From Syntrophorhabdaceae bacterium (GTDB taxonomy: Bacteria > Desulfobacterota > Syntrophorhabdia > Syntrophorhabdales > Syntrophorhabdaceae), in contig DATKMQ010000100.1 of the NCBI GenBank assembly GCA_035541755.1, forward strand, positions 1-64,000: a DNA stretch of 64,000 nucleotides, written 5' to 3'. Of the stretch, positions 5,314 to 21,049 are shown piece after piece (within the stretch, counting starts at the first letter, position 1; each line of letters opens with the position of its first letter). The translations under genes were made by a program, and so were the position numbers. The notes beneath the pieces were generated by a model. It saw only the letters and a list, made by a program, of their open reading frames with translations. It did not search any database and was not told the origin of the DNA.

Positions 5314-6879
5314 TTATAGCTCTCCCTCCTGGAGCAGTTCTTTGCGCTTGTTTCTCTGCACGTCATTAATCAACACAATCATCGGCAAAGAGAGGACAAA
5401 CGCAGCCGTGATCAGGAGATAGACATGGTTGAACGCGAGCATGGTCGCCTGCCTTTCGACCGTCCTTTCCACGATCGTGACAGCCCCCGTGCTCGCGGCG
5501 TAGGGATCCAATCCCTTGGATAGCAGGAATGATGATAGCGCGTCCAATGATTGAGACGCTGTATCTCTGTATGGCGTCACGTGCTGTATGAGTATGGCCC
5601 GATTCAATGCCTCTCCGCGGGTCAGAAACGTTGCAGCAAGAGCAATACCCACGCTACCCGATAACTGTCGGACCACGGTGAAGAGTCCTACCGCAGCGGT
5701 CATGTGCGGTTTTTCAATAGTAGATAGTCCCGCGGTGGCGAGAGAAACGAAAACGAGACCGAAGCCCGCCCCCAGGTAGAACTGCGGCCAAAAGATATCC
5801 CAGTAGCCGGTAGCGAGTGAAAGGCGTGAAAATTGGTAGAAGGAAAAGCCACTCACGAATAGCCCTGCGCCTACGAGCACTTTCGGCCCCAGCCTGTTGT
5901 ACATCCTGCCTGCAACGGGCATGACAATAGCCATGGCAAGGCCTCTCGGCAGTAGTGCCAGCCCGGAGTCAGTGGCCGGAAAGCCGAGAAGCTGCTGGAG
6001 GAAGAGCGGCATGGCAAAGAGGCCTGCAAGAAGGCCCATGCCGAGAACACCGTTCACAGCCGTTGCAGAGGCAAAGTTGGTATCCTTGAGTATCTTTAAA
6101 TCTACTGCCGGCTTGTCTGTGGTCAGCTCCCGCCATATGAAGACAACGAGGCTCACTGAAGCTGCCACGGCAAGATACTTGATGAAATTCGAAGCGAGCC
6201 AATCTTTCTCATTGCCTCTCTCTAAAAGGATCTGGAGTGTTCCGAGACCTGCCGCCAGAAAGAAGAGGCCTGTAACATCAAACTTGCCTTTCTCCCGGAC
6301 GAGATACGGTGGATCCTGGATAAACTGCGTCACGAGGAGGATATTTATGATGCCGATAGGCACGTTAATATAGAATATCCACGGCCAGGAGTAATTGTCG
6401 GTGATAAAGCCCCCAAGAGTCGGCCCTAAAGCCGGGCCCAAAATGGTGCCGATCCCGTAGATACCTGTAGCGACCCCTTGTTCTTCGGAAGGAAATGTTT
6501 CCCGCAGTATTGCCTGCGAAATGGGTATGAGCGTGCCGCCTCCCAAGCCCTGAATAATCCGGAACGTGATCATAGACGGCAGATTCCAGGCAAGTCCGCA
6601 TAACATGGAAGCACAGGTAAAAAGGAGTACGGAAAAGATGCAGAACCGCTTGCGCCCGAATCGGGAACTCATGAACGCGATGAGAGGCATGATGATCACA
6701 CACGAGGATATATATCCCGTAGAAACCCAGGCGATCTCTTCAATTGTGGCACCGAGTGTTCCGCGCATACTGGGCAGGGCCACGTTGACTATGCTCGTGT
6801 CCACCGACGCCATGATGGTACCTGTCATCACCGTCACGGTAATGAGCCATTTATTGTGGGGTCTGAAAGCTCCGTCCAT
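5314..6879 (-). CDS. DHA2-family MFS multidrug efflux transporter (EmrB/QacA type)
   Basis: The 521 residues contain about 14 hydrophobic segments, the DHA2 layout. Family signatures are visible: an Asp in helix 1 (ASVDTSIVNVALP), motif A after helix 2 (SSRFGRKRF), and antiporter motif C in helix 5 (GPALGPTLGG). Such proteins expel amphipathic drugs by proton antiport. EmrB partners normally sit beside an EmrA membrane-fusion protein; none is present here, so it either works alone or pairs with a distant adaptor. It converges on the aldo/keto reductase. The drug range is not predictable. Confidence 0.88.
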   Translation of the reverse strand: MDGAFRPHNKWLITVTVMTGTIMASVDTSIVNVALPSMRGTLGATIEEIAWVSTGYISSCVIIMPLIAFMSSRFGRKRFCIFSVLLFTCASMLCGLAWNLPSMITFRIIQGLGGGTLIPISQAILRETFPSEEQGVATGIYGIGTILGPALGPTLGGFITDNYSWPWIFYINVPIGIINILLVTQFIQDPPYLVREKGKFDVTGLFFLAAGLGTLQILLERGNEKDWLASNFIKYLAVAASVSLVVFIWRELTTDKPAVDLKILKDTNFASATAVNGVLGMGLLAGLFAMPLFLQQLLGFPATDSGLALLPRGLAMAIVMPVAGRMYNRLGPKVLVGAGLFVSGFSFYQFSRLSLATGYWDIFWPQFYLGAGFGLVFVSLATAGLSTIEKPHMTAAVGLFTVVRQLSGSVGIALAATFLTRGEALNRAILIQHVTPYRDTASQSLDALSSFLLSKGLDPYAASTGAVTIVERTVERQATMLAFNHVYLLITAAFVLSLPMIVLINDVQRNKRKELLQEGEL

Positions 6880-7146
6880 GAGGTCACCGTTTAACGAATA
6901 ATCTTGAGTTATAAGACAGTTTCGGGCCGGTCTTACTCATCACGCCCCGACTCAAGGATCGACCGGATAGACCCTGCGGGCCCATCTGATTAAGGTATGA
7001 GTCCTCTATTTCATCCCTCACGCACGCGACGTTCATGTCTTGAGAATCCATTCTTTTATAGACCTGCCAACATTTATTGTACCACCTCTAAGGTCGGACA
7101 CTCAACTAAGGATTGCGAGAGAAGGTGCGGAAGGGATTTTTGGGAA

Positions 7147-7872
7147 TTATTCGGCGCAGGTCGATACCTGCACCTGGCCCAGATAGGAGTCTATCACAGC
7201 CTGATTGGCCATCAGCTCCGTTGCTGAGCCTCGAAGAACGATCTTTCCGCTCTCCATGACGTAGCCGTCTGAAGAAACCATAAGGGCCTGGTGGGCATTT
7301 TGTTCCACGAGCAGGATGGTGAGACCCTCGGAGTGGAGCTCACCAACGATATCGAAGATGGTTTGAACGAGAAGGGGAGCGAGCCCCAACGATGGCTCGT
7401 CGAGAAGCAGTAACTTTGGCTTTGCCATGAGACCGCGTGCAATGGCGAGCATCTGCTGCTCCCCGCCGGAGAGCGTGCCGGCTGGCGACTTGCGGCGCTC
7501 CGCCAGGATCGGGAAGCGCGCCTCCATGGCGGCAATGCTCGCCCTGGTCTCGCTCGCGGAGCGGCGGTAGGCACCCAGTTCCAGGTTTTCGCGAACGGTC
7601 ATGGTGGCGAGTACGAGCCGGCCCTCGGGCACCTGGACGATCCCCTCCGATACCCGTCTATGGGCGCTTGCGCGCGTAATATCTTTTCCCTGGAATCGTA
7701 TGGTTCCATGGGCTGCAGGGATCACGCCGCTGATGGCGTTGAGCGTCGTGGTTTTACCCGCACCGTTGGGACCGACGAGCGATACAATGCTGCCTTCAGC
7801 GACCCGAAAGGAGATGTCGCGGACCGCCTCAATGTGGCCGTATGATACGGTGAGCCCGGTTACCTCAAGCAT
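7147..7872 (-). CDS. livF: Branched-chain amino-acid-type ABC transporter ATPase LivF
   Basis: An ABC ATPase of 241 residues with Walker A GPNGAGKTT (near residue 35), ABC signature LSGGEQQ and Walker B LLLLDEPSLGLAP followed by the switch His (LLVEQNAHQ). This pattern and length are those of LivF, one of two ATPases powering HAAT-family uptake of branched-chain amino acids or related small carboxylates. It is the last gene of a leftward operon livK-H-M-G-F and overlaps livG by 8 bases, so translation is probably coupled. In anaerobic aromatic degraders these cassettes often carry aromatic acids or amides; the true ligand here is unknown. Confidence 0.92.
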   Translation of the reverse strand: MLEVTGLTVSYGHIEAVRDISFRVAEGSIVSLVGPNGAGKTTTLNAISGVIPAAHGTIRFQGKDITRASAHRRVSEGIVQVPEGRLVLATMTVRENLELGAYRRSASETRASIAAMEARFPILAERRKSPAGTLSGGEQQMLAIARGLMAKPKLLLLDEPSLGLAPLLVQTIFDIVGELHSEGLTILLVEQNAHQALMVSSDGYVMESGKIVLRGSATELMANQAVIDSYLGQVQVSTCAE

Positions 7873-11557: not shown

Positions 11558-12413
11558 ATGACCTCCTTGAATGTTATGTATGACTTCCAGGTGAGGCCTG
11601 ACCGCCGCATTGAGCACAAGCGGCTTTAGGCCCCGCCTTTAAGGCCGGTGTCATGTCATGCCGGGCGCGAAAACGGTCTTTTCGCCCCGGTAGAGCGGAA
11701 AAGACGGGATAATTCGGCTAAAACTGCTTTGTCCGAACGGTAAAACACGCGATTCGAGCAAGTTGCTGGTGAATTATATCACTTTTTGCGGCAGGATAGG
11801 AATAGGAATATTTTCCTAATTTGGCCCCTGAAGTCTAAAAGCGTCCAAAATGCGTGAAGAGGCGAAAGACCAAAGGCGAAAGGCGAAAGGCGAAAGGCGA
11901 AAGGCTGTGGGGGTGTGTCTGGACTGAGATTTGTTCGTACGCTAATCTGCGGCGGCTTACTATCGGCACGCGCGCCTTAGCGTTTACCACCCACGTGAAA
12001 GTGGGTTGCTCCTTAACTATGTGACAGCGCGTGGGTACCCGGCAAGCCTATTTTTAGGATGTAATAATGGCCCGCGTTGCCAGCGTGCCGCGTAATCCAT
12101 CCACATCTGTCGCTTAACCTCCAAATCTCAGTCCATTCCACTCTCGAAAGTTGCCTAACCTGTCAACTTTCTCGATCTATCAAGATTGGAATCCACAATT
12201 ATTATGCGCTTATCGCCTACGTTTCACTCGCGAACGCTAGCGGCCAAGAATCGAAGAGTGCAAATGTATTGTCTCGGGGGTCCTAATGAACCCCGCCCCA
12301 CGCAGGCTCCCCAATTCTACTGAGGATCCCAACTTTGGTGGACGGCTGCCTGAAGACTTTCCGAGGACAGCTGTCCCCGACGCATTTTGGTATATTTTTA
12401 CATTAAATAAAAC
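11558..12413. other. Long intergenic region between livK and the accessory cluster
   Basis: No convincing gene is seen in about 850 bases. Structure present: a 7-bp tandem array at 11874-11905; an exact 12-bp inverted pair GGACTGAGATTT (11921-11932) / AAATCTCAGTCC (12123-12134) enclosing about 190 bases; and a 12-bp palindrome GGACAGCTGTCC at 12365-12376. The livK promoter must lie in the first 200 bases, but I could not pick out a clear one. The inverted pair and the change to A/T-rich sequence after 12380 suggest an insertion boundary. Confidence 0.5.
11874..11905. repeat. 7-bp tandem repeat (AGGCGAA)n
   Basis: Four perfect head-to-tail copies of AGGCGAA followed by a partial AGGC. A degenerate copy (gaggcgaaagacca) precedes the array. 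It is non-coding and could vary in copy number by slippage. Confidence 0.85.
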
Positions 12414-12442
12414 TTGACAAAGTAAAATAGTTTACATATATT
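12414..12442 (+). promoter_or_regulatory. Promoter of the DUF4258/MqsA-like/Lon-RNase HIII operon, with operator
   Basis: TTGACA (12414-12419) and TATATT (12437-12442) with exactly 17 bp between them form a near-consensus sigma70 promoter. Inside the spacer is an inverted repeat GTAAA-ATAG-TTTAC (12422-12435), well placed as the operator for the HTH antitoxin encoded second in the operon. Autorepression by an MqsA-type protein is known for the family; for this site it is inference. Confidence 0.7.
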
Positions 12443-12489
12443 ATAAGAAATACTGTTAACCGATATGAAAGGCGGAGACAGGGCTGCAT

Positions 12490-12783
12490 ATGACGATAGA
12501 CGAAATACGAGATTTAGTATTAGAAGGCAGGTACAACTATTCGCAAAAGATAAGAGAATCGATCGAAGATGGCTGGTACGGCGAGGAAGATCTGGAACAA
12601 TGCATACTTACGGGGTGTATCTCGAAAACAGAAAGGGATGAATTGAAGACCTCGGTGGATGGGAAGAAGCACGTCATTCTTGGAAGAGATACCTGTGGGT
12701 GCCCGTTCTATACTTGCGGGAAGGCTATAAAGGACGAAGAAGGCAAACTCTATTTCTTCATAACCGGGCATAAAACAAAATGA
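12490..12783 (+). CDS. DUF4258-type, RelE-like small protein (putative toxin)
   Basis: A 97-residue protein opening with MTIDEIRDLVLEGRYNYSQK and the later ISKTERDE...VILGRDTCGCPFY pattern of DUF4258. Such proteins are compact RelE-like folds usually encoded just upstream of YgiT/MqsA-type zinc-finger antitoxins, exactly as here. The usual invariant His after the first helix is not obvious, so ribonuclease activity is uncertain. The motif CGCPFYTCGK holds three cysteines, unusual for the family. Its stop overlaps the next ATG (ATGA). It is first gene after a strong promoter with an inverted-repeat operator. It may be a toxin, or a ligand or adaptor subunit of the downstream system. Confidence 0.65.
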   Translation: MTIDEIRDLVLEGRYNYSQKIRESIEDGWYGEEDLEQCILTGCISKTERDELKTSVDGKKHVILGRDTCGCPFYTCGKAIKDEEGKLYFFITGHKTK

Positions 12784-13646
12784 GGATGTCAAACATGTTT
12801 AATTATAAGTGCGAAGAATGTGGAAAAGGTGTGGTAAGGGAGACGGGTCTGGAGGATTACAAAACGAAGATCAAGGGGCGTCCATTTGTGGTTGAGAAAG
12901 CAATAGTCGGCATTTGTGACCGTTGTGGGGCGAGGCATTTCGACGCAAGTGAGACCAAGCGTTGGGAAAGACTCTACAACAAAAAATTAGAGGCGAATAA
13001 ACTGTATTTGTCGGCGGAAGAAATAGCAGAAGTTAGGAGGGACTTGGTTCTTTCAATGGAGAGTTTTGCCTCTTTGCTTGGTTGTACCCGTCAGTCGATC
13101 TACAATTGGGAAAAGAAGGATCGAGAAACACCCCAATCTCGCATGGCTGACCTCCTAATCAAGCTGGTGAGGGACTCGGCCAAGGATGGCAGAATTAATG
13201 TGCTCGAATTCTTGGTTGAAGAAGCTGCAAACATTGGGACTCCTGTGCGGGTCGGGAATAATGTGAACGCCCAAAGCGATCCAATTAGGCTTGAAATAAA
13301 AAGAGTCCCTCGACTGTCTCTCGAGGAATCCAACACCGACATGCCGCTTGCAGCCTCCGATGAACAAGGCACGGTGGTTGTTGCGGAATCAAATGACAAA
13401 ACGTTTCGCGGCTTTCTTCGCTACGACTTTTCGACCGCCAACTTATGGTTGCAAATACTGCATGATGCGCTCTGCTTGAAAGCTATCAACGTCACAATAG
13501 CGACCAATGACCAAAATCAGATAGATAGAAAGAACGTTGCAATCGAAGACAATGCGATTCCCCTTATCTTGGAGACGCGATACAGGGAGCGCGACATTCG
13601 GGCCATAATTATGGAACCCTTGGCTGTTCAGGCAAAGAAGTGCTGA
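12780..13646 (+). CDS. MqsA/YgiT-like zinc-finger HTH antitoxin with long C-terminal extension
   Basis: Residues ~5-55 form a YgiT-type zinc ribbon with paired CxxC motifs (CEEC and CDRC). Residues ~75-125 are an XRE helix-turn-helix (SFASLLGCTRQSIYNWEK), as in MqsA antitoxins. MqsA proteins are about 130 residues; this one is 288, with an additional ~160-residue C-terminal region that I cannot assign and that is predicted largely soluble. It probably binds the GTAAA/TTTAC operator upstream and neutralises the preceding DUF4258 protein. Start at 12780 assumes ATGA coupling; ATGs at 12786 and 12795 are also possible. The extra domain may link regulation to the Lon-RNase HIII protein encoded directly after it. 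Confidence 0.75.
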   Translation: MRMSNMFNYKCEECGKGVVRETGLEDYKTKIKGRPFVVEKAIVGICDRCGARHFDASETKRWERLYNKKLEANKLYLSAEEIAEVRRDLVLSMESFASLLGCTRQSIYNWEKKDRETPQSRMADLLIKLVRDSAKDGRINVLEFLVEEAANIGTPVRVGNNVNAQSDPIRLEIKRVPRLSLEESNTDMPLAASDEQGTVVVAESNDKTFRGFLRYDFSTANLWLQILHDALCLKAINVTIATNDQNQIDRKNVAIEDNAIPLILETRYRERDIRAIIMEPLAVQAKKC

Positions 13647-13648
13647 AG

Positions 13649-15961
13649 ATGGATATTAGGAAGGTTCGAAGGCTAAAGTTACTTCTGAGAGAAGTCCAAA
13701 TCATGAGAGACGGGAGCGAGAGGCTAGAACCGACATTCGACGAAATATGTAATTTGGTCTTCACTGACAATGCCTTTATGGAATTCTGGGATGAAGAACT
13801 GCTTAACGGGTTGCGAGAATTGTTTCAGCTAAAGTCACCCAGCGTCAGTGTATATGGCGAACAATTGAGATTTCTAGCAGACAGAAGAGAATTCGTGCAG
13901 ACGGCGAATGATATTTTCTTCTCTTTGCTTGATAGTAAATCAACTTCTACCGACATCGTTGACCGTCTCTCACGCCTTCTTGGTATATCCCATCCGAACC
14001 CTTCGACCGCAATCGATCCTTCCCGTATAGCGGATATCAGAGTAAGCACCTCCTCGCTCTCAGAAAAGGTAAGAACGTTTGTCGACTACCTTTCAACGGA
14101 AACGCCCTTGGTAATGGGTGCTGTAACAAATGATCTGTACCGCATAGCGGAGACGATGAAGGCTCAGGAAACCCCGGGGAAAGTAAACGCCATGCTGGTT
14201 ACGAGCGATAAAGTTGTCGGCGTTCTCATTCCTTTGTCAATCCGCTTGTCTCCAGGAGAGGGCAAGACCATCTGCTTAGTATCGGTCGCAGACCGTTTTA
14301 CGGCTGCCATAGACCGAGCACGGCGCGCTATGGAGAGCAAAGGTTTTCTTGCTTGCGGCCAAGATGTGGATTGCTCGCTGGAAATCACTTCGGCCGAATA
14401 CAGCGGAGACTCTATTGCATTGGCTGCAGCAGTTGGAATTTACTCCGCGGCTTCCAAAGAATGCTTCGATCCCTTCACTGCCTTTACTGGGAACATCAAT
14501 CTTGATGGCTCTATTTTTAAGATTCTACCCGTTTCAGGAATAAATGCCAAACTCTCGGCGGCCGTCAAATCCGGCTGCCGTCGGGTTTTTCTACCGGCGG
14601 AGAATCGGTCTGATGTTGGACCCGAATTCCACGAGCGACTTCAAATACTCTATGTCACTGACATTATCGACGTTCTCCTAAAGCTACAGCTTAACCCTGC
14701 ACCGGTATCTGGTGAATCATTACAAGTTAGGAAACTGAACTTCTTGCGAGCATATTGTCAAAATAGAGGCTGGGACCTTTCTGAAGGTGAGCAAATCCAA
14801 GACGCTTTACAGTTCACCGTCTCGCCGGCCCATCCACCCGAGATCAAGATCAATCTTTACTATAGCGGAACACATACGCCGAAGACCAACGACGGAGAAT
14901 TCTTCCACGATCTGTTAGACGGACTTCAAGGCCTCGACCAACCGAAAATTGCCACCCGGGATGTCAACAAGACGTTTCTGATAAAGGACGTTGATTTAAG
15001 AAGGCAGATAAGAGAACGGCTGGAGCAAATGAGACCCGACAGCATGATAGAACAGTACTGCGACTACAGCTTTCGCTTTCAGAGCGCGGGAGAAAGACTT
15101 GTCGCGAAACAGTATGCCAAAGGAACCTTGCAGTTACAGGGCCGGGCAGGCGATCTCTACAAGCGGGTTCTTGACGTCATCATACCCCCTTACACTATGA
15201 AACACCCAAACGCCACGTTGCTGATCGACGAGTACTTAGACGATTCGGCAGTCGTAGAAGCCAAGGCCAGCGTCAAAGCTACCGGGTTGGTCGTCCGTGA
15301 TATTTTGTATCCACATATCGGCACGGACGAATCAGGAAAAGGCGACTACTTCGGGCCCCTTGTTGTCGCCGGTGTCTGGGTCGACGAAAAGACAGCAGAG
15401 GAATTGGAGGCCCTCGGAGCACGAGATTCCAAGCTTCTGTCGGACAAGCGGTGCAAAGAACTGGCAGCTAAAATCCGTGAGATTTGCCAGGGTAAGTTCG
15501 AAGAGATAGAGTTGGTGCCCGAGCGATATAATGATCTATATGACCAGTTCGCCAAAGAGCGAAAGAATTTAAACCACCTCCTCGCGTGGGGCCATGCTCG
15601 GGCGATAGAGAGTTTGGCTGAGAAACTACCGTGTGATTGTGCGATCGCCGATCAATTCGGCGACGAGAAATATATCCTGTCTAAGCTAATGGCAAAGGGT
15701 AAGAAGCTGGAGTTGATTCAAACCCCAAAGGGTGAGAGATACGTGGCAGTAGCAGCCGCCTCTATCTTGGCTAGGGATCGCTTCTTATCACGCATGGAGA
15801 AGTTTAACCTGAAGTATGGATTGTTGTTGCCCAAAGGGGCATCAGATTTGGTTGTGTCTGTCGCTCGGTCTATCGTCGGGAAGACAGGGCCTCAGGAACT
15901 ACGAAACGTTGCAAAACTGCATCACAGAACCACTCAAAGAGTCATCGAAAGAAAACAATGA
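13649..15961 (+). CDS. Lon-type (S16) protease domain fused to RNase HIII
   Basis: A 770-residue protein with an unfamiliar architecture. Residues ~1-170 are unassigned and helical. Residues ~175-345 resemble the Lon proteolytic domain, including TGNINLDGSIFKILPVSG and KLSAAVKSGCRRVFLP. The candidate dyad is Ser255 (GDS) and Lys301 (INAKLSAA), 46 residues apart, close to the spacing in Lon; no AAA+ motor is present. Residues ~440-540 resemble the TBP-like substrate-binding domain of RNase HIII (KGTLQLQGRAGDLY). Residues ~555-770 are an RNase HIII catalytic domain: DESGKGDYFGP with Asp560-Glu561, DSK at 593, Asp668 (ADQF), and Glu696 before the VAVAAASILAR block. It should cut RNA:DNA hybrids or RNA, coupled to proteolysis. 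A GTG start at 13640 is an alternative. It starts 2 bases after the MqsA-like gene and overlaps the TPR gene. Confidence 0.8.
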   Translation: MDIRKVRRLKLLLREVQIMRDGSERLEPTFDEICNLVFTDNAFMEFWDEELLNGLRELFQLKSPSVSVYGEQLRFLADRREFVQTANDIFFSLLDSKSTSTDIVDRLSRLLGISHPNPSTAIDPSRIADIRVSTSSLSEKVRTFVDYLSTETPLVMGAVTNDLYRIAETMKAQETPGKVNAMLVTSDKVVGVLIPLSIRLSPGEGKTICLVSVADRFTAAIDRARRAMESKGFLACGQDVDCSLEITSAEYSGDSIALAAAVGIYSAASKECFDPFTAFTGNINLDGSIFKILPVSGINAKLSAAVKSGCRRVFLPAENRSDVGPEFHERLQILYVTDIIDVLLKLQLNPAPVSGESLQVRKLNFLRAYCQNRGWDLSEGEQIQDALQFTVSPAHPPEIKINLYYSGTHTPKTNDGEFFHDLLDGLQGLDQPKIATRDVNKTFLIKDVDLRRQIRERLEQMRPDSMIEQYCDYSFRFQSAGERLVAKQYAKGTLQLQGRAGDLYKRVLDVIIPPYTMKHPNATLLIDEYLDDSAVVEAKASVKATGLVVRDILYPHIGTDESGKGDYFGPLVVAGVWVDEKTAEELEALGARDSKLLSDKRCKELAAKIREICQGKFEEIELVPERYNDLYDQFAKERKNLNHLLAWGHARAIESLAEKLPCDCAIADQFGDEKYILSKLMAKGKKLELIQTPKGERYVAVAAASILARDRFLSRMEKFNLKYGLLLPKGASDLVVSVARSIVGKTGPQELRNVAKLHHRTTQRVIERKQ

Positions 15962-17247
15962 CGGACGAACGGTTAGCTTCACAATCGGACGAAACTGTAG
16001 TCCTACAGAGAGCCCGGAAACTTATGGACGAAAAGAAAGTGAGAGATGCGTTGTCACTCCTGCGCTCTGCTCATCAGCAAAATTCGCTGTCCGTCCATGG
16101 ATTGGAAATCCTCGCTTTCTGTTACTCCAAGGCGAAGGAGTACCGAAAGGCTATCTCCATTTATCAGCAACTATCGGCCAAAGATCCGAGCAAGGCAAAA
16201 TGGTTCTATTATCTTGGATACCAATACGGATCCTTGATGCAGGTAGATGAAGCAATCAAGAACTATCGAAAGGCTCTCTATTTATATCCCAAATGGATGA
16301 AGCCTTTTCCGGAACTTGTAAGGCTCCTGAAAGAATCCGGAGATAGGGAAGAATCTATTAAACTCTGTCGGAAAGGGATACAGCTGTACAAAGAACTGAT
16401 TCCTGATTTGCAGAGAAAGTATTCGGACTGCTATGCAGAATTATGTCTATTCGCAGCTCAAGCGCTTGTCACAATTGATAGAGCGGGCGCGGACGCTCTC
16501 ATGCAAGAATACATCACGCTTCGCACAGACGATCTGAACTCTTTATATGTATACGGAAGTTACCTGCTTGATAGCGGAAGGCCGGAAGAAGCGATTGAGT
16601 ACTACCGTCGGGCTCAAGCGCGTGGCCTTACCAAGGAGTATGTCCCTCACAAGATGGCGAAGGCATGGTTGATGCTGGGGAATACTGATCAAGCCTTGAA
16701 GACATACGAGACTATTCCACTCCAGAAAAGAACGGGGTACATTCTCAATGGAATGGGTAAATGTTTCGCAAAAAAGGGCAACAGCCAGGATGCCTTGCTG
16801 TACTTTTACAGGGCTGCGAAGTCTCAGGCCAAATGGTATCACTACCGTGATGTCGGCCTTGCCTTAGCTGATCTCGGCGCAACAATTCAGGCAATTGGGT
16901 TTTTGGGACGGAGTAATGAAATGTACCGACAGGAGACAGGCGACGATTTCACAAAGCTTGTCATGAAAATTGAAGAGCTACGACAGGTGCCTAATACGAC
17001 TCATATAAATCTCAGCGAATTTGATCCCGCTGTTCCGATCTCTAGTTGCGGGAGTGTTGTAGAGTACAATCCGAAAAGAGGATACGGCTTTATAAGGGAC
17101 GACAAGGACAACGGAAAGCTCTTCTTTCACGTTAGTGAAGTAAAAGACCGCATGGAACCTCGGATTGGGCTGCGAGTAAAGTTTGTAAGGGAACACGGTG
17201 AAAAGGGGCCGGTAGCCCGGAAAGTCCGACCAGGTAAGCAGCTGTAA
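15958..17247 (+). CDS. TPR-repeat protein with C-terminal cold-shock domain
   Basis: A 429-residue soluble protein. Residues ~15-320 are TPR-like helical hairpins (for example GYQYGSLMQVDEAIKNYRKALYLYP split over two helices, and LDSGRPEEAIEYYRRAQARG). Residues ~360-425 form a cold-shock/OB domain: GSVVEYNPKRGYGFI contains the RNP1-like element and KLFFHVSEV the RNP2-like element, both used to bind single-stranded RNA or DNA. The ATG overlaps the stop of the Lon-RNase HIII gene (ATGA), so the two are translationally coupled. The TPR part probably scaffolds the nuclease or protease and the CSD presents nucleic acid. I know of no standard family with this pairing in this context. Confidence 0.75.
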   Translation: MTDERLASQSDETVVLQRARKLMDEKKVRDALSLLRSAHQQNSLSVHGLEILAFCYSKAKEYRKAISIYQQLSAKDPSKAKWFYYLGYQYGSLMQVDEAIKNYRKALYLYPKWMKPFPELVRLLKESGDREESIKLCRKGIQLYKELIPDLQRKYSDCYAELCLFAAQALVTIDRAGADALMQEYITLRTDDLNSLYVYGSYLLDSGRPEEAIEYYRRAQARGLTKEYVPHKMAKAWLMLGNTDQALKTYETIPLQKRTGYILNGMGKCFAKKGNSQDALLYFYRAAKSQAKWYHYRDVGLALADLGATIQAIGFLGRSNEMYRQETGDDFTKLVMKIEELRQVPNTTHINLSEFDPAVPISSCGSVVEYNPKRGYGFIRDDKDNGKLFFHVSEVKDRMEPRIGLRVKFVREHGEKGPVARKVRPGKQL

Positions 17248-17314
17248 GGGCGATAAACAGGCTAAGGGGGCCTTATCGATGGAGTGCGTCGGCACCTTTT
17301 TGTGAGAATAAACT

Positions 17315-17983
17315 ATGGACAGCGTGAATAAGGCTATCGCAGATATTAAGTCACAGTTGCAATGGCCTGTGGAGTGCAAAATAAGCGATCTAGAAAACCA
17401 GGCACCCAGTTGGTCCCTGAGTTATACGCATAGAATTTCTTATCCCAAGAACACATGTCTGCTCGACATACTGCACGAACACCTGCATGCGCTGGACCGC
17501 GAACGCTTGCCAGCTCAGTATTCAGACGGGATTCCACCTATTGATAACTGCCCATGGGGATTCGAAGTGCGCGTCAATTACTATTTCAATGTTGTTCGTG
17601 ACTGGACCGTCAACTTCCGAATAGCGACATTATGCCCCGACAGTGCCCGTGAGTGGATAGAACAAGATTACCATGATAAACTGAACATAATTCAGCAGGC
17701 TAGAACCCCGGAGGACAAGTTGATCGTTGGGCTTGCTTTTGCAGAATACGCTAAGTTTCTTGGTAAGTCGGACATCCCAACCATTGAAGACAAAGACATT
17801 CAGCGCGTCTTCGAGGTTATAATTGATGTCCCTACTGAACCAAATTTAGACGAACTTCATATCGCAGTTGATGCTCTGGCATCGATATTTGACGAGTTTC
17901 GAGTCCAGAAGTGTATTGGAACCAAGGAAATATGGTACGTCATTCCAAATCTGTCTCCGGCTTGCGTTCAACCGAAAAAGTAG
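17315..17983 (+). CDS. Putative HExxH zinc metallopeptidase, unknown family
   Basis: A 222-residue soluble protein of no family I recognise. It contains HEHLH at residues 54-58, a perfect HExxH zinc-binding motif within a predicted helix (LLDILHEHLHAL). Downstream, the FEVRVNYYFNVVRDW segment (~80 residues later) could provide a third ligand (Glu) as in gluzincins. It follows the TPR/CSD gene in the same direction after 67 bases and is probably the last member of the cluster. The small gap holds a weak TAAGG/CCTTA inverted repeat. The metallopeptidase role is inferred from the motif only; a chance HExxH cannot be excluded. Confidence 0.55.
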   Translation: MDSVNKAIADIKSQLQWPVECKISDLENQAPSWSLSYTHRISYPKNTCLLDILHEHLHALDRERLPAQYSDGIPPIDNCPWGFEVRVNYYFNVVRDWTVNFRIATLCPDSAREWIEQDYHDKLNIIQQARTPEDKLIVGLAFAEYAKFLGKSDIPTIEDKDIQRVFEVIIDVPTEPNLDELHIAVDALASIFDEFRVQKCIGTKEIWYVIPNLSPACVQPKK

Positions 17984-18014: not shown

Positions 18015-18180
18015 AATTAATCCATTTTAACAGCATGGATAGTCTGCTGTCGGAACGAACCTTCTCCGGGCACCATGATGCATCGAGTGCGTCTTTTACA
18101 CCTATAAGGTACTGTTTCTGCTCACTCGACAATGCGGGCGGTCCGCCAGGCCGGTGATATCCCAGCCTGATGAGCGGGGC
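18015..18180 (-). pseudogene. Degenerate duplicate of the TonB-like lipoprotein gene at 20600-21049
   Basis: The minus strand encodes ALSSEQKQYLIGVKDALDAS and then RSDSRLSML, nearly identical to ALSDEQKEYLIGVKDALYAS and RSDSSLSML of the intact lipoprotein 2.8 kb away; DNA identity is high over about 150 bp. The signal peptide, lipobox and C-terminal beta domain are missing, and the surrounding frame does not match the family. The rest of 17984-18446 holds no gene; it includes a dispersed element at 18307-18345. The two copies bracket the ParA module. Confidence 0.8.
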
Positions 18181-18446: not shown

Positions 18447-19040
18447 TTACTCTTGACCGTCCGGGGAACTAGAATCCCCATCGCTAGCGTGATTGTGGCT
18501 TTCTCCCAATCGTTGGTAACCTCTGAAGTTGGCAATTTTAGTGATTATTTGATGGACGAGTGAATCTCTACTCAACCTGCCGACGGAACTAATGCCCTGT
18601 ATGAGGGCTACCGCTCTCAATTGCTTGGTCGAATAACGGTTGGTTTGTAGTCCTGATCTTATCTCATCGACCGGAAGCTCCTGGAGTTTATTGAGAATTG
18701 ATCTTGCCGCGTCAAGCTCTTCCTCGCGAGAACCAACGTCAAGAGGCTTCCTCGATGGCCGGGCTCGAAAGCCAAGAACCCTCGAGAGCATAGGTCTTTC
18801 TTGCGTGTTCTCTAGGCGATCTCTTAATCTCTCAATAGATTCCTTTGTCGCAAGAACATCTTCCTGCGCTGGTAAACGCTCAACGACCTCCTTTAGATCG
18901 TTGAGGAACGTAAGCACAACAGACAGATGTTCTGTAATCTCACTTTTCTCTTTTTCGGTAGGCAGAGAACGAAGCAACTTGTCTATATCTGACAAAAACA
19001 CTTTAATGCCACGATTGCTAGGTTCCTTCTTTTTTTGCAT
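18447..19040 (-). CDS. Coiled-coil/SAP-like protein, partner of the adjacent ParA ATPase
   Basis: A 197-residue charged protein. Residues ~15-80 are strongly helical with heptad-like spacing (IDKLLRSLPTEKEKSEITEH, then KESIERLRDRLENTQ), suggesting a coiled coil. Residues ~115-175 (PVDEIRSGLQ...YSTKQLRAVA...LVHQIITKI) look like a SAP-type helix-extended-helix, a common DNA-binding fold. The last 20 residues are polar and disordered (HNHASDGDSSSPDGQE). It follows the ParA gene after 5 bases, so it is probably the cargo or ParB-like partner of that ATPase. No formal family is recognised. Confidence 0.6.
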   Translation of the reverse strand: MQKKKEPSNRGIKVFLSDIDKLLRSLPTEKEKSEITEHLSVVLTFLNDLKEVVERLPAQEDVLATKESIERLRDRLENTQERPMLSRVLGFRARPSRKPLDVGSREEELDAARSILNKLQELPVDEIRSGLQTNRYSTKQLRAVALIQGISSVGRLSRDSLVHQIITKIANFRGYQRLGESHNHASDGDSSSPDGQE

Positions 19041-19045
19041 TTGCT

Positions 19046-19984
19046 CTAAAACCTCCCTAAGAACTCCTGTGTTATTTTCTGATACTCTCGTTTATTGCCG
19101 GCCCGCCTTGCATTCTGACTACCATGTAGCCAAACTGGCAAATTGTTTTCTGCTGCCTCGCTGTACCCTATTAGTTCAGTCGTATACACTGGAAAAACAT
19201 AGCTCCCATTTAGAAGGTTCCTAACTTCTTCCATTTTACTAAAATGAGTGGCGGTAAGCAAGCTGCCGCCGATTCTAACCTTAACGAAAATGACGCCTCC
19301 AAGCTGTGCTATCTTGAGTGGATCTTTCGTGGAGCCTGCAAACGTCTGGGCTGAGCCTAGTAACTCACCTATTCGCTTGACTTTACTCTGTAGGATTCTC
19401 AATCCAATCGTTGAAAGATGATCTGGTATAGCAGAAATCACATACCAAGCGCTTGCTGCTAGGGCGTTCTGTGTCATCAAGTAAAGATTGGGCGGACAAT
19501 CGATCAGAACATAATCATACTTATCTTCGACTTCTTGGATAGCACTATTTAGAAAAAGTCTTTCTCTAAGATACTCTTTGGATGATTGTCTAAGTGCTTC
19601 AAGGCTTGGAAAACTCCCAGAAACTTGGCCTCCACTAAGGTCTTCTCCAAGGAGATCTATGTCGCAAGGAATAAGATCGAGAGTATTGATTTTTAACGAA
19701 CCAGATCCAACGGGCGATCTCCAAATATATCGTTTTGTATCGATAGCTTTCCTATTCAAGTAATTTTGATACATGGTCGCAATCGTGCCCTTCTTCTTCT
19801 TAACGTCTTCCCAGTCCTCGATTGTTGCACAGAGAAAGGTAAGATTCGTTTGCGGATCAATGTCGATAAGAAGTACTCTCTTGCCATGGTGCTGTGCAAG
19901 CGAACATCCGATATGGTATGTGGTTGTTGTTTTACCCACACCGCCCTTGTAATTAATGAATGAGATAACTTTGGCTCTCTGCAT
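19046..19984 (-). CDS. ParA/Soj-family ATPase
   Basis: A 312-residue P-loop ATPase with deviant Walker A KGGVGKTT at residues 13-20, Walker A' LLIDIDPQTNLTF and Walker B YDYVLIDCPP. These ATPases form DNA-bound dimers that position plasmids, chromosomes or protein cargos. The long insertion between Walker A' and B (~45-130) and the C-terminal VYTTELIGYSEAAENNLPVW are typical of the plasmid/phage-type ParA clade rather than chromosomal Soj. It is first gene of a two-gene leftward operon, facing the HExxH gene, and no ParB or parS sites are evident. It could be a segregation relic of an integrated element or the ATPase of a defence or positioning module. Confidence 0.85.
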   Translation of the reverse strand: MQRAKVISFINYKGGVGKTTTTYHIGCSLAQHHGKRVLLIDIDPQTNLTFLCATIEDWEDVKKKKGTIATMYQNYLNRKAIDTKRYIWRSPVGSGSLKINTLDLIPCDIDLLGEDLSGGQVSGSFPSLEALRQSSKEYLRERLFLNSAIQEVEDKYDYVLIDCPPNLYLMTQNALAASAWYVISAIPDHLSTIGLRILQSKVKRIGELLGSAQTFAGSTKDPLKIAQLGGVIFVKVRIGGSLLTATHFSKMEEVRNLLNGSYVFPVYTTELIGYSEAAENNLPVWLHGSQNARRAGNKREYQKITQEFLGRF

Positions 19985-20599: not shown

Positions 20600-21049
20600 T
20601 CATGGGGTTTTAGCCTTAAATGCGAAGGCGATTTTGGCGGCGTCTGCGTTAAGCGATGCAGGAATAGACGGGAGGCCCCTGGCCGTCTGGATTGCCGTAA
20701 GAACCGACTCATCGAACTTATTGTTGCCGGAGCGTTTGTCTACCGTAACATCAAGGACCTTGCCGTCTTTGCTGGCCTTAAGTACTACAAGCATGGATAG
20801 ACTGCTGTCGGAGCGAAACTCCTCCGGGCAGTGCCATGATGCATAGAGAGCGTCTTTTACACCTATAAGGTACTCTTTCTGCTCATCCGACAATGCGGAC
20901 GGTCCGCCGGCGCCGGTGACATCCCAAACGGCCTGATGAGTAGATCGGGTATCCGTGCTTGCACACGAAGCAAGCAGCGCCAAAACAAGCAATGCGTACG
21001 GGGCAATGTTACGTGAGATACGACCCTGCTGCAGACGGACAGAAATCAT
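20600..21049 (-). CDS. Lipoprotein with TonB/TolA-like C-terminal domain
   Basis: 149 residues starting at the ATG at 21049, which follows AAGGAGGAATT; a longer upstream frame exists but lacks a ribosome site. The N-terminus is a lipoprotein signal (ALLVLALLASC lipobox, Cys ~29). The rest, DALYASWHCPEEFRSDSSLS through VVLKASKDGKVLDVTVDKRS and SNKFDESVLTAIQTA-like text, follows the TolA/TonB C-terminal pattern, usually seen in cell-envelope energy-transfer proteins. As a free lipoprotein it probably works in the periplasm. A copy of its middle section lies at 18015-18180. Copy E of the dispersed element overlaps its likely promoter. Confidence 0.75.
   Translation of the reverse strand: MISVRLQQGRISRNIAPYALLVLALLASCASTDTRSTHQAVWDVTGAGGPSALSDEQKEYLIGVKDALYASWHCPEEFRSDSSLSMLVVLKASKDGKVLDVTVDKRSGNNKFDESVLTAIQTARGLPSIPASLNADAAKIAFAFKAKTP

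Follow-up and report, generated by a model that had tools for sequence, protein, structure and literature searches.

A predicted toxin-antitoxin operon with its own Lon-TBP-RNase HIII fusion protein in a Syntrophorhabdaceae genome

A nucleotide ligand switches on the Lon protease CalpL, which cuts a protein partner in its complex and also degrades the ligand itself (PMC11417357), and the caspase homologue MaOC1 cleaves the antitoxin encoded next to it (PMC7935541). In the RNase LS system, it is RNase HI that brings the antitoxin RnlB to RnlA (PMC5308261). Furthermore, both RNase HIII and RNase LS/RnlA proteins are known to carry TBP-like domains, which in RNase HIII bind RNA:DNA hybrids (PMC3710099, PMC7221094), and for RNase LS proteins with a fused RNase H or TBP domain an attack on hybrids has been proposed (PMC3710099). 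A recent survey counts DUF4258 among the BECR toxin families, its activity being unknown, and lists DUF4258-MqsA fusions as fused toxin-antitoxin (TA) modules (PMC11980606). Here we describe a four-gene cassette found in a stretch of 64,000 nucleotides (the window) from a Syntrophorhabdaceae bacterium, contig DATKMQ010000100.1. We read genes 1-4, tentatively and at somewhat short of an even chance, as a self-repressing TA operon that would possess its own nucleic-acid-sensing protease and in which cleavage of the antitoxin would free the toxin, probably against phages.

An earlier reading of this DNA from its letters alone (the original prediction) had described an operon of five genes, and five open reading frames are confirmed, all on the + strand: gene 1 (12490-12783, 97 aa), gene 2 (12780-13646, 288 aa), gene 3 (13649-15961, 770 aa), gene 4 (15958-17247, 429 aa) and gene 5 (17315-17983, 222 aa). 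Its statement that the four leading genes overlap or lie at most 2 bases apart agrees with the spacing, which is -4 bp between genes 1 and 2, +2 bp between genes 2 and 3 (from the ATG at 13649 taken as the start of gene 3, an alternative GTG at 13640 being possible) and -4 bp between genes 3 and 4; the distance from gene 4 to gene 5 is +67 bp. The single near-consensus promoter that it had placed ahead of the genes is likewise present, as a sigma-70-type TTGACA-17-TATATT sequence at 12414-12442 (+ strand) with 11 of 12 consensus bases. This site ranks first of the 10 promoter-like sites in the 6.9 kb scanned (chance mean 7.8) and is the sole one scoring 11/12; in the relatives described below TTGACA occupies the same position. 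A weak hairpin followed by a T run (17250-17302, + strand) is a possible operon end ahead of gene 5. Judged by this anatomy, genes 1-4 are probably co-transcribed, and a TA-like pair heading a protease-nuclease unit, as foreseen, is indeed what the region contains. The G+C content of the cassette (45-51%) is below that of the upstream transport genes (~58%), and the cassette looks mobile.

Gene 3 had been proposed to be a Lon-RNase HIII protein, which Lon_C and TIGR00716 matches confirm. Following a helical N-domain, it encodes a Lon S16 protease domain (14174-14701), two TBP-like lobes akin to the RnlA N-terminal region (14720-15202) and an RNase HIII domain (15317-15943), all on the + strand. 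The Ser (in GDS, codon 14411-14413) and the Lys (in GINAKL, codon 14549-14551) of the Lon dyad align with the A. fulgidus Lon protease domain and are conserved throughout all aligned gene 3 relatives. Moreover, the modelled protease domain matches Lon proteolytic domains with Z 23-24, and a structure search with the whole gene 3 model returned Lon matches only. No AAA domain was found in gene 3 in Pfam or NCBIfam scans; given the absence of the AAA+ part of LonA/LonB, gene 3 carries the S16 peptidase domain in another architecture and is predicted to be an ATPase-less protease with an intact dyad. The segment after the Lon domain was aligned with the TBP-like part of RnlA-type proteins by hhalign (97.5% probability, E 7e-12), and a weak RnlA Pfam match covers the same region. 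Neither RnlA-toxin_DBD nor HEPN was matched by Pfam in gene 3, the RNase HIII domain standing directly after the lobes. The identity of this last domain is clear, with 180.1 bits to TIGR00716 (rnhC cut-off 161.2), matches to PDB 2d0a/3asm and acidic active-site residues that are retained and conserved in the alignments. The sensor side would hence extend beyond what had been noted earlier, the predicted protease appearing to be fused to RnlA-like hybrid-binding lobes as well as to RNase HIII. Gene 4 matches the TPR and CSD families of Pfam, in agreement with the TPR/cold-shock protein originally named there, its TPR repeats being followed by a C-terminal cold-shock domain (17050-17229, + strand).

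The two genes ahead of this unit were examined by structure and family comparison. Gene 1 is a predicted toxin of the MqsR/BrnT fold (BECR, DUF4258-like), supported by a family alignment and by an AlphaFold2 (AF2) model of pLDDT 92 that was built from a four-sequence alignment. In structure, this model most resembles the toxin MqsR (3hi2_B, Z 9.4 across 86 residues), at a clear distance from unrelated entries. Next come one chain of a toxin-antitoxin complex from Salmonella (Z 7.4), BrnT (3u97, Z 6.3) and, lower, YoeB, RelK and HigB2 entries with Z of about 4-5. VIA-align of the same candidates put MqsR first, and Foldseek gave no significant match for the model, so that the fold is well but not overwhelmingly supported. 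The name DUF4258 first given to gene 1 is itself backed by a weak family match below cut-off (E 0.13), but the structure model supports a BECR toxin. For gene 2, the MqsA-like helix-turn-helix (HTH) protein that had been predicted is recovered by TIGR03830 at 63.9 bits (cut-off 61.8) and by PF15731 at 33.4 (cut-off 30). The YgiT-type zinc finger and the HTH by which such an antitoxin and repressor is recognised are both present in its N-terminal part, and ~150 residues extend beyond the MqsA-type region. The C-terminal domain of gene 2 (13320-13643, + strand) is constant across toxin types and may be the region at which the gene 3 protease docks or cuts.

Genes 1-4 were found in identical order in Desulfobacterota-type, Nitrospirota and Acidobacteria metagenome-assembled genomes (MAGs), at seven loci of which some are partial or decayed, with gene 3 relatives 42-54% identical to that of the window. 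The cassette is rare: full-length gene 3 occurs in two of 395 phylum genomes, namely the window genome and G299, and among 297 Acidobacteriota genomes in the starting genome only. The other relatives were reached by further searches, which gave G397, L044 (Thermodesulfovibrionales), L047 (Acidobacteria gp2) and L048 (Acidobacteria gp1), G973 being found in the phylum sample around L044. A genome-contig search with full gene 3 returned nothing, whereas one with an alignment of the Lon-TBP part returned relatives. The order toxin, antitoxin, Lon-TBP-RNase HIII and TPR-CSD is complete at G973, G299 and L047, where the CSD lies in a shifted frame, while L044 holds genes 1-3 and the start of gene 4 before the contig ends; relatives of gene 4, whole or partial, adjoin gene 3 at G299, G973, G397, L044 and L047. 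As L047 and L048 have 3.9 kb in common at 99.6% identity, which indicates recent transfer or mis-binning, the seven loci amount to about six independent ones. When the co-conservation of all five genes was checked, as the original prediction had suggested, it held for genes 1-4 in the relatives but for gene 5 at none of those readable downstream of gene 4. No cassette relative was found in the viral contigs searched, while the plasmids searched gave RNase HIII or Lon parts of gene 3 only, genes 2 and 5 remaining without match there. The phages searched gave RNase HIII parts only, apart from one TBP-RNase HIII protein. This protein (L032, 5986-6972) stands on a record named Microcystis phage MaAM05 beside purF, gatA and aspS, neighbours that look bacterial-chromosomal.

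The upstream regions of the MqsA-type operons, in the window and four relatives, have in common TTGACA, then the palindrome TGTAAAATATTTTACA, then a -10 box, the palindrome being positioned between the -35 and -10 boxes. In the window it reads AGTAAAATAGTTTACA (12421-12436, + strand) and is presumed to be the site of the gene 2 repressor. TGTAAAATATTTTACA is exact in L044, G973 and L047, with 2 mismatches in the window and 3 in G397; a second copy is seen further upstream in G973 and L047, and weaker second copies in L044 and G397. Allowing up to 3 mismatches, the palindrome has one match in the 64-kb window (0.2 expected), which is the promoter one, and its 14-bp core has one exact match across the 3.85-Mb genome. 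A composed full-promoter pattern matched at none of the relative loci searched, and for this reason the operator comparison rests on comparing the palindromes of the upstream regions. The palindrome differs in sequence from the E. coli MqsA operator. A palindrome within the promoter is the arrangement of a self-repressing TA operon, and we regard this one as a putative operator; at the level of sequence, the palindromic operator overlapping the promoter that marks MqsRA-like type II TA systems is thus present.

At G299 the front of the cassette is of a different kind. Its first gene is a BrnT-type toxin (Pfam E 3.5e-5, below Pfam's own cut-off) with no BLAST similarity to gene 1, and the N-terminal part of its antitoxin shows a marginal match to gene 2 (E 0.006) that is not convincingly alignable. 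Over the last ~97 residues, however, the antitoxins of G299 and the window share 33% identity (about 1e-19), gene 3 being 51% and gene 4 42% identical. Upstream of this BrnT-type cassette the palindrome TGTAAAATATTTTACA is absent, and another inverted repeat, TATCCTA-CACTT-TAGGATA, overlaps the -10 box. Furthermore, among the 395 genomes the gene 2 C-terminal domain is found in exactly the two that carry full-length gene 3; as the search profile was built with both carriers, the informative part of this count is the absence of the domain elsewhere. The toxin/antitoxin end thus appears exchangeable and the C-terminal domain of gene 2, together with genes 3-4, constant, and the simplest reading is that this domain would connect any TA pair to the protease unit. 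The gene 3 tree is weakly supported and leaves the direction of the toxin exchange unsettled.

The mechanism that we propose builds on what was observed: which genes are present and in which order, their co-conservation, their domains and catalytic residues, the operator, and a toxin end that is exchanged while the C-terminal domain of gene 2 is kept. In the resting state, gene 2 would hold the MqsR-like toxin of gene 1 and occupy the promoter palindrome. By means of its TBP lobes and its RNase HIII domain, gene 3, probably with gene 4, would recognise RNA:DNA hybrids or related nucleic acids that arise when phages or plasmids replicate, and ligand binding would render its ATP-independent Lon domain active. 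The active protease would then cut gene 2 in or beside its C-terminal domain, which would both free the toxin and lift the repression of the operon. The freed toxin, presumably an RNA-cutting BECR enzyme, would arrest the cell, and by removing the hybrid RNase HIII may in turn inactivate the protease. That gene 1 is toxic, that the antitoxin is cleaved, that hybrids are the trigger and that the system acts against phages is what we infer here; each element has a precedent, in CalpL (PMC11417357), in MaOC1 (PMC7935541) and in RNase HI/RnlAB (PMC5308261), the chain that joins them being our own proposal.

As regards a defence role, we infer it from the gene neighbourhoods of the relatives. Indeed, the G299 cassette lies near a type III restriction-modification (R-M) system and a ZacB-like protein, that of G397 near a type I R-M locus and that of G973 near a type IIG/DrmMI-like enzyme. 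Upstream of the BrnT-type cassette, L034 also encodes at 5650-7410 a 586-aa protein of no known family, between the type III R-M genes and a ZacB-like PLD protein.

The R-M neighbours at these three loci speak against a module for stress or for element stabilisation (addiction) that has no part in phage defence, in which the sensor would report replication stress such as R-loops or unrepaired hybrids and trigger dormancy. The anatomy of the operon is equally compatible with such a module, and the patchy presence, the insertion sequence (IS) and integrase flanks and the near-identical copy in two Acidobacteria MAGs fit a mobile element of this kind, which we nevertheless consider fairly unlikely. 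Another explanation takes RNase HIII with gene 4 as the effector, destroying RNA primers or R-loops of an invader, with the TA pair as back-up or addiction unit and the Lon domain only turning over the antitoxin or the complex. The retained active site, the existence of an RnlA-like/RNase HIII fusion in G424 and the proposal that RNase LS fusions with RNase H or TBP domains attack hybrids (PMC3710099) are in its favour, but it leaves unexplained both the fusion of protease and sensor and the retention of the gene 2 C-terminal domain despite the exchange of the toxin end, and we judge it unlikely. A chance or ordinary operon, with a common TA pair ahead of unrelated housekeeping genes, would draw on the abundance of both TA pairs and RNase HIII, matches to the stand-alone enzyme being widespread in the searched phyla. 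Set against this are four genes whose order and tight spacing are kept in distant phyla, where gene 3 is 42-54% identical, a common operator and a gene 2 C-terminal domain that co-occurs with gene 3; the divergence also speaks against a recent transfer of all members, and this explanation appears very improbable.

Several points weigh against the preferred reading, a TA operon armed by its own sensing protease. RNase HIII could simply be the effector. The TBP assignment of gene 3 is based on profile comparison, a PDB sequence search with the TBP region alone returned nothing, and the AF2 model of gene 3 has low confidence across the RNase HIII part. The named cassette records are few and all metagenome-assembled, and among them are two damaged relatives, G397, from which RNase HIII and the greater part of gene 4 are missing, and L048, whose copy is broken off inside gene 3 next to a transposase gene (IS). 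Beside the window copy, the genes scanned included neither R-M nor other known defence genes.

Gene 5, a 222-aa protein with an HEHLH motif, was considered as a member of the cassette and rejected, as it lies 67 bp off behind the weak hairpin and T run and has no counterpart in the relatives. Indeed, no relative of it stands downstream of gene 4 in those readable there, it is without Pfam family, and among 247 phylum genomes, the window itself aside, only two weak matches were found; gene 5 is probably a passenger. The inclusion of gene 5 in the operon by the original prediction is accordingly not upheld, nor is its mention of two protease-like folds, the HEHLH motif being insufficient by itself for a protease. 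The gene fragments expected on one flank are present, since 18032-18174, which begins 48 bp past gene 5, is an 87% partial copy of a TonB-type gene at 20790-20940. The two TonB-type copies flank a ParA-like gene and its neighbour (18447-19984), which suggests an insertion or duplication boundary. On the other side, 11972-12072 holds a ~90-bp element of inverted-repeat character, with copies of roughly 74-80% identity elsewhere in the genome, on several further contigs, and also in a same-genus genome. The gene-free, inverted-repeat-bearing segment announced there hence stands as regards this ~90-bp repeat, but the repeat finder reported no inverted repeat of at least 16 bp in the upstream gene-free segment, and an Rfam scan of it gave no match.

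Taken as a whole, the set looks like an undescribed alarm-and-shutdown system, probably anti-phage, and there is a real chance that it represents a new system class. In its most specific form, which we hold possible though doubtful, an RNA:DNA-hybrid sensor made of TBP lobes and RNase HIII would gate a Lon protease that activates exchangeable BECR toxins by cleavage of a constant antitoxin adaptor domain, the RNase H serving as timer, and would define a new immunity or stress class. If true, one sensor-protease would arm different toxins through a portable antitoxin domain, and the actual trigger of a TA system would be answered for at least one family. RNA:DNA hybrids would moreover be an infection signal read by a protease, which would be new among the systems that we found described. 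With the operator and the domain swap, the idea lends itself to direct tests on cloned genes.

The expectation that no known defence system matches this set agrees with the PADLOC models, which gave partial domain matches only and covered gene 3 solely in its Lon part. Likewise, no description of the four-gene set was found in the literature searched, which left outside most subscription papers and bioRxiv preprints. For BREX BrxL, the gene 3 match is limited to profile positions 496-675 of 680, the Lon part, and a full-length BrxL with AAA+ was not encountered.

Compared with MqsRA-type and DUF4258/MqsA modules, the cassette is alike in having the toxin gene first, a BECR-fold toxin, an MqsA-type zinc-finger/HTH antitoxin and a promoter palindrome. 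Unlike in MqsRA-type modules, the antitoxin here has an additional C-terminal domain and the operon goes on with genes for a protease fused to RNase HIII and for a TPR-cold-shock protein. With RnlA/RnlB (RNase LS) and RnlA-RNase HIII operons it shares TBP-like lobes coupled to an RNase H-type enzyme; the effector of RnlA/RnlB is a HEPN RNase, whereas the cassette showed no HEPN domain and has a Lon protease in its stead. In G194, an RnlA-type toxin, RNase HIII and a TPR-cold-shock/OB protein follow in a row with no Lon, and in G424 an RnlA-like protein is fused to RNase HIII. TBP, RNase HIII and TPR-CSD may thus be a sensing core that recurs with different effectors joined to it, which is suggestive only because one RnlA operon of the full type was seen. 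On L036, 11143-14516 is an operon of an RnlA-like toxin, RNase HIII and a TPR cold-shock/OB protein (PADLOC TPR-cold-shock model, E 1.8e-30), and on L041, 295-2127 encodes a 610-aa RnlA-like protein, with TBP lobes and a HEPN-resembling region, fused to RNase HIII.

The MaOC1 caspase homologue with its ParDE-like TA pair resembles the cassette in that a protease gene adjoins a TA pair and the antitoxin is cleaved by MaOC1 (PMC7935541); it differs in being an unrelated cysteine protease, for which the abstract describes no nucleic-acid-sensing domain. Finally, CalpL/CalpT/CalpS, the SAVED-Lon system of type III CRISPR, is alike in fusing Lon to a ligand-binding nuclease domain and in acting on a partner protein, as we propose here. 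In contrast to CalpL, gene 3 carries neither CARF nor SAVED, the PADLOC CARF/SAVED-Lon models matching its Lon region only; its sensor would be TBP plus RNase HIII, and its proposed substrate an antitoxin instead of an anti-sigma factor.

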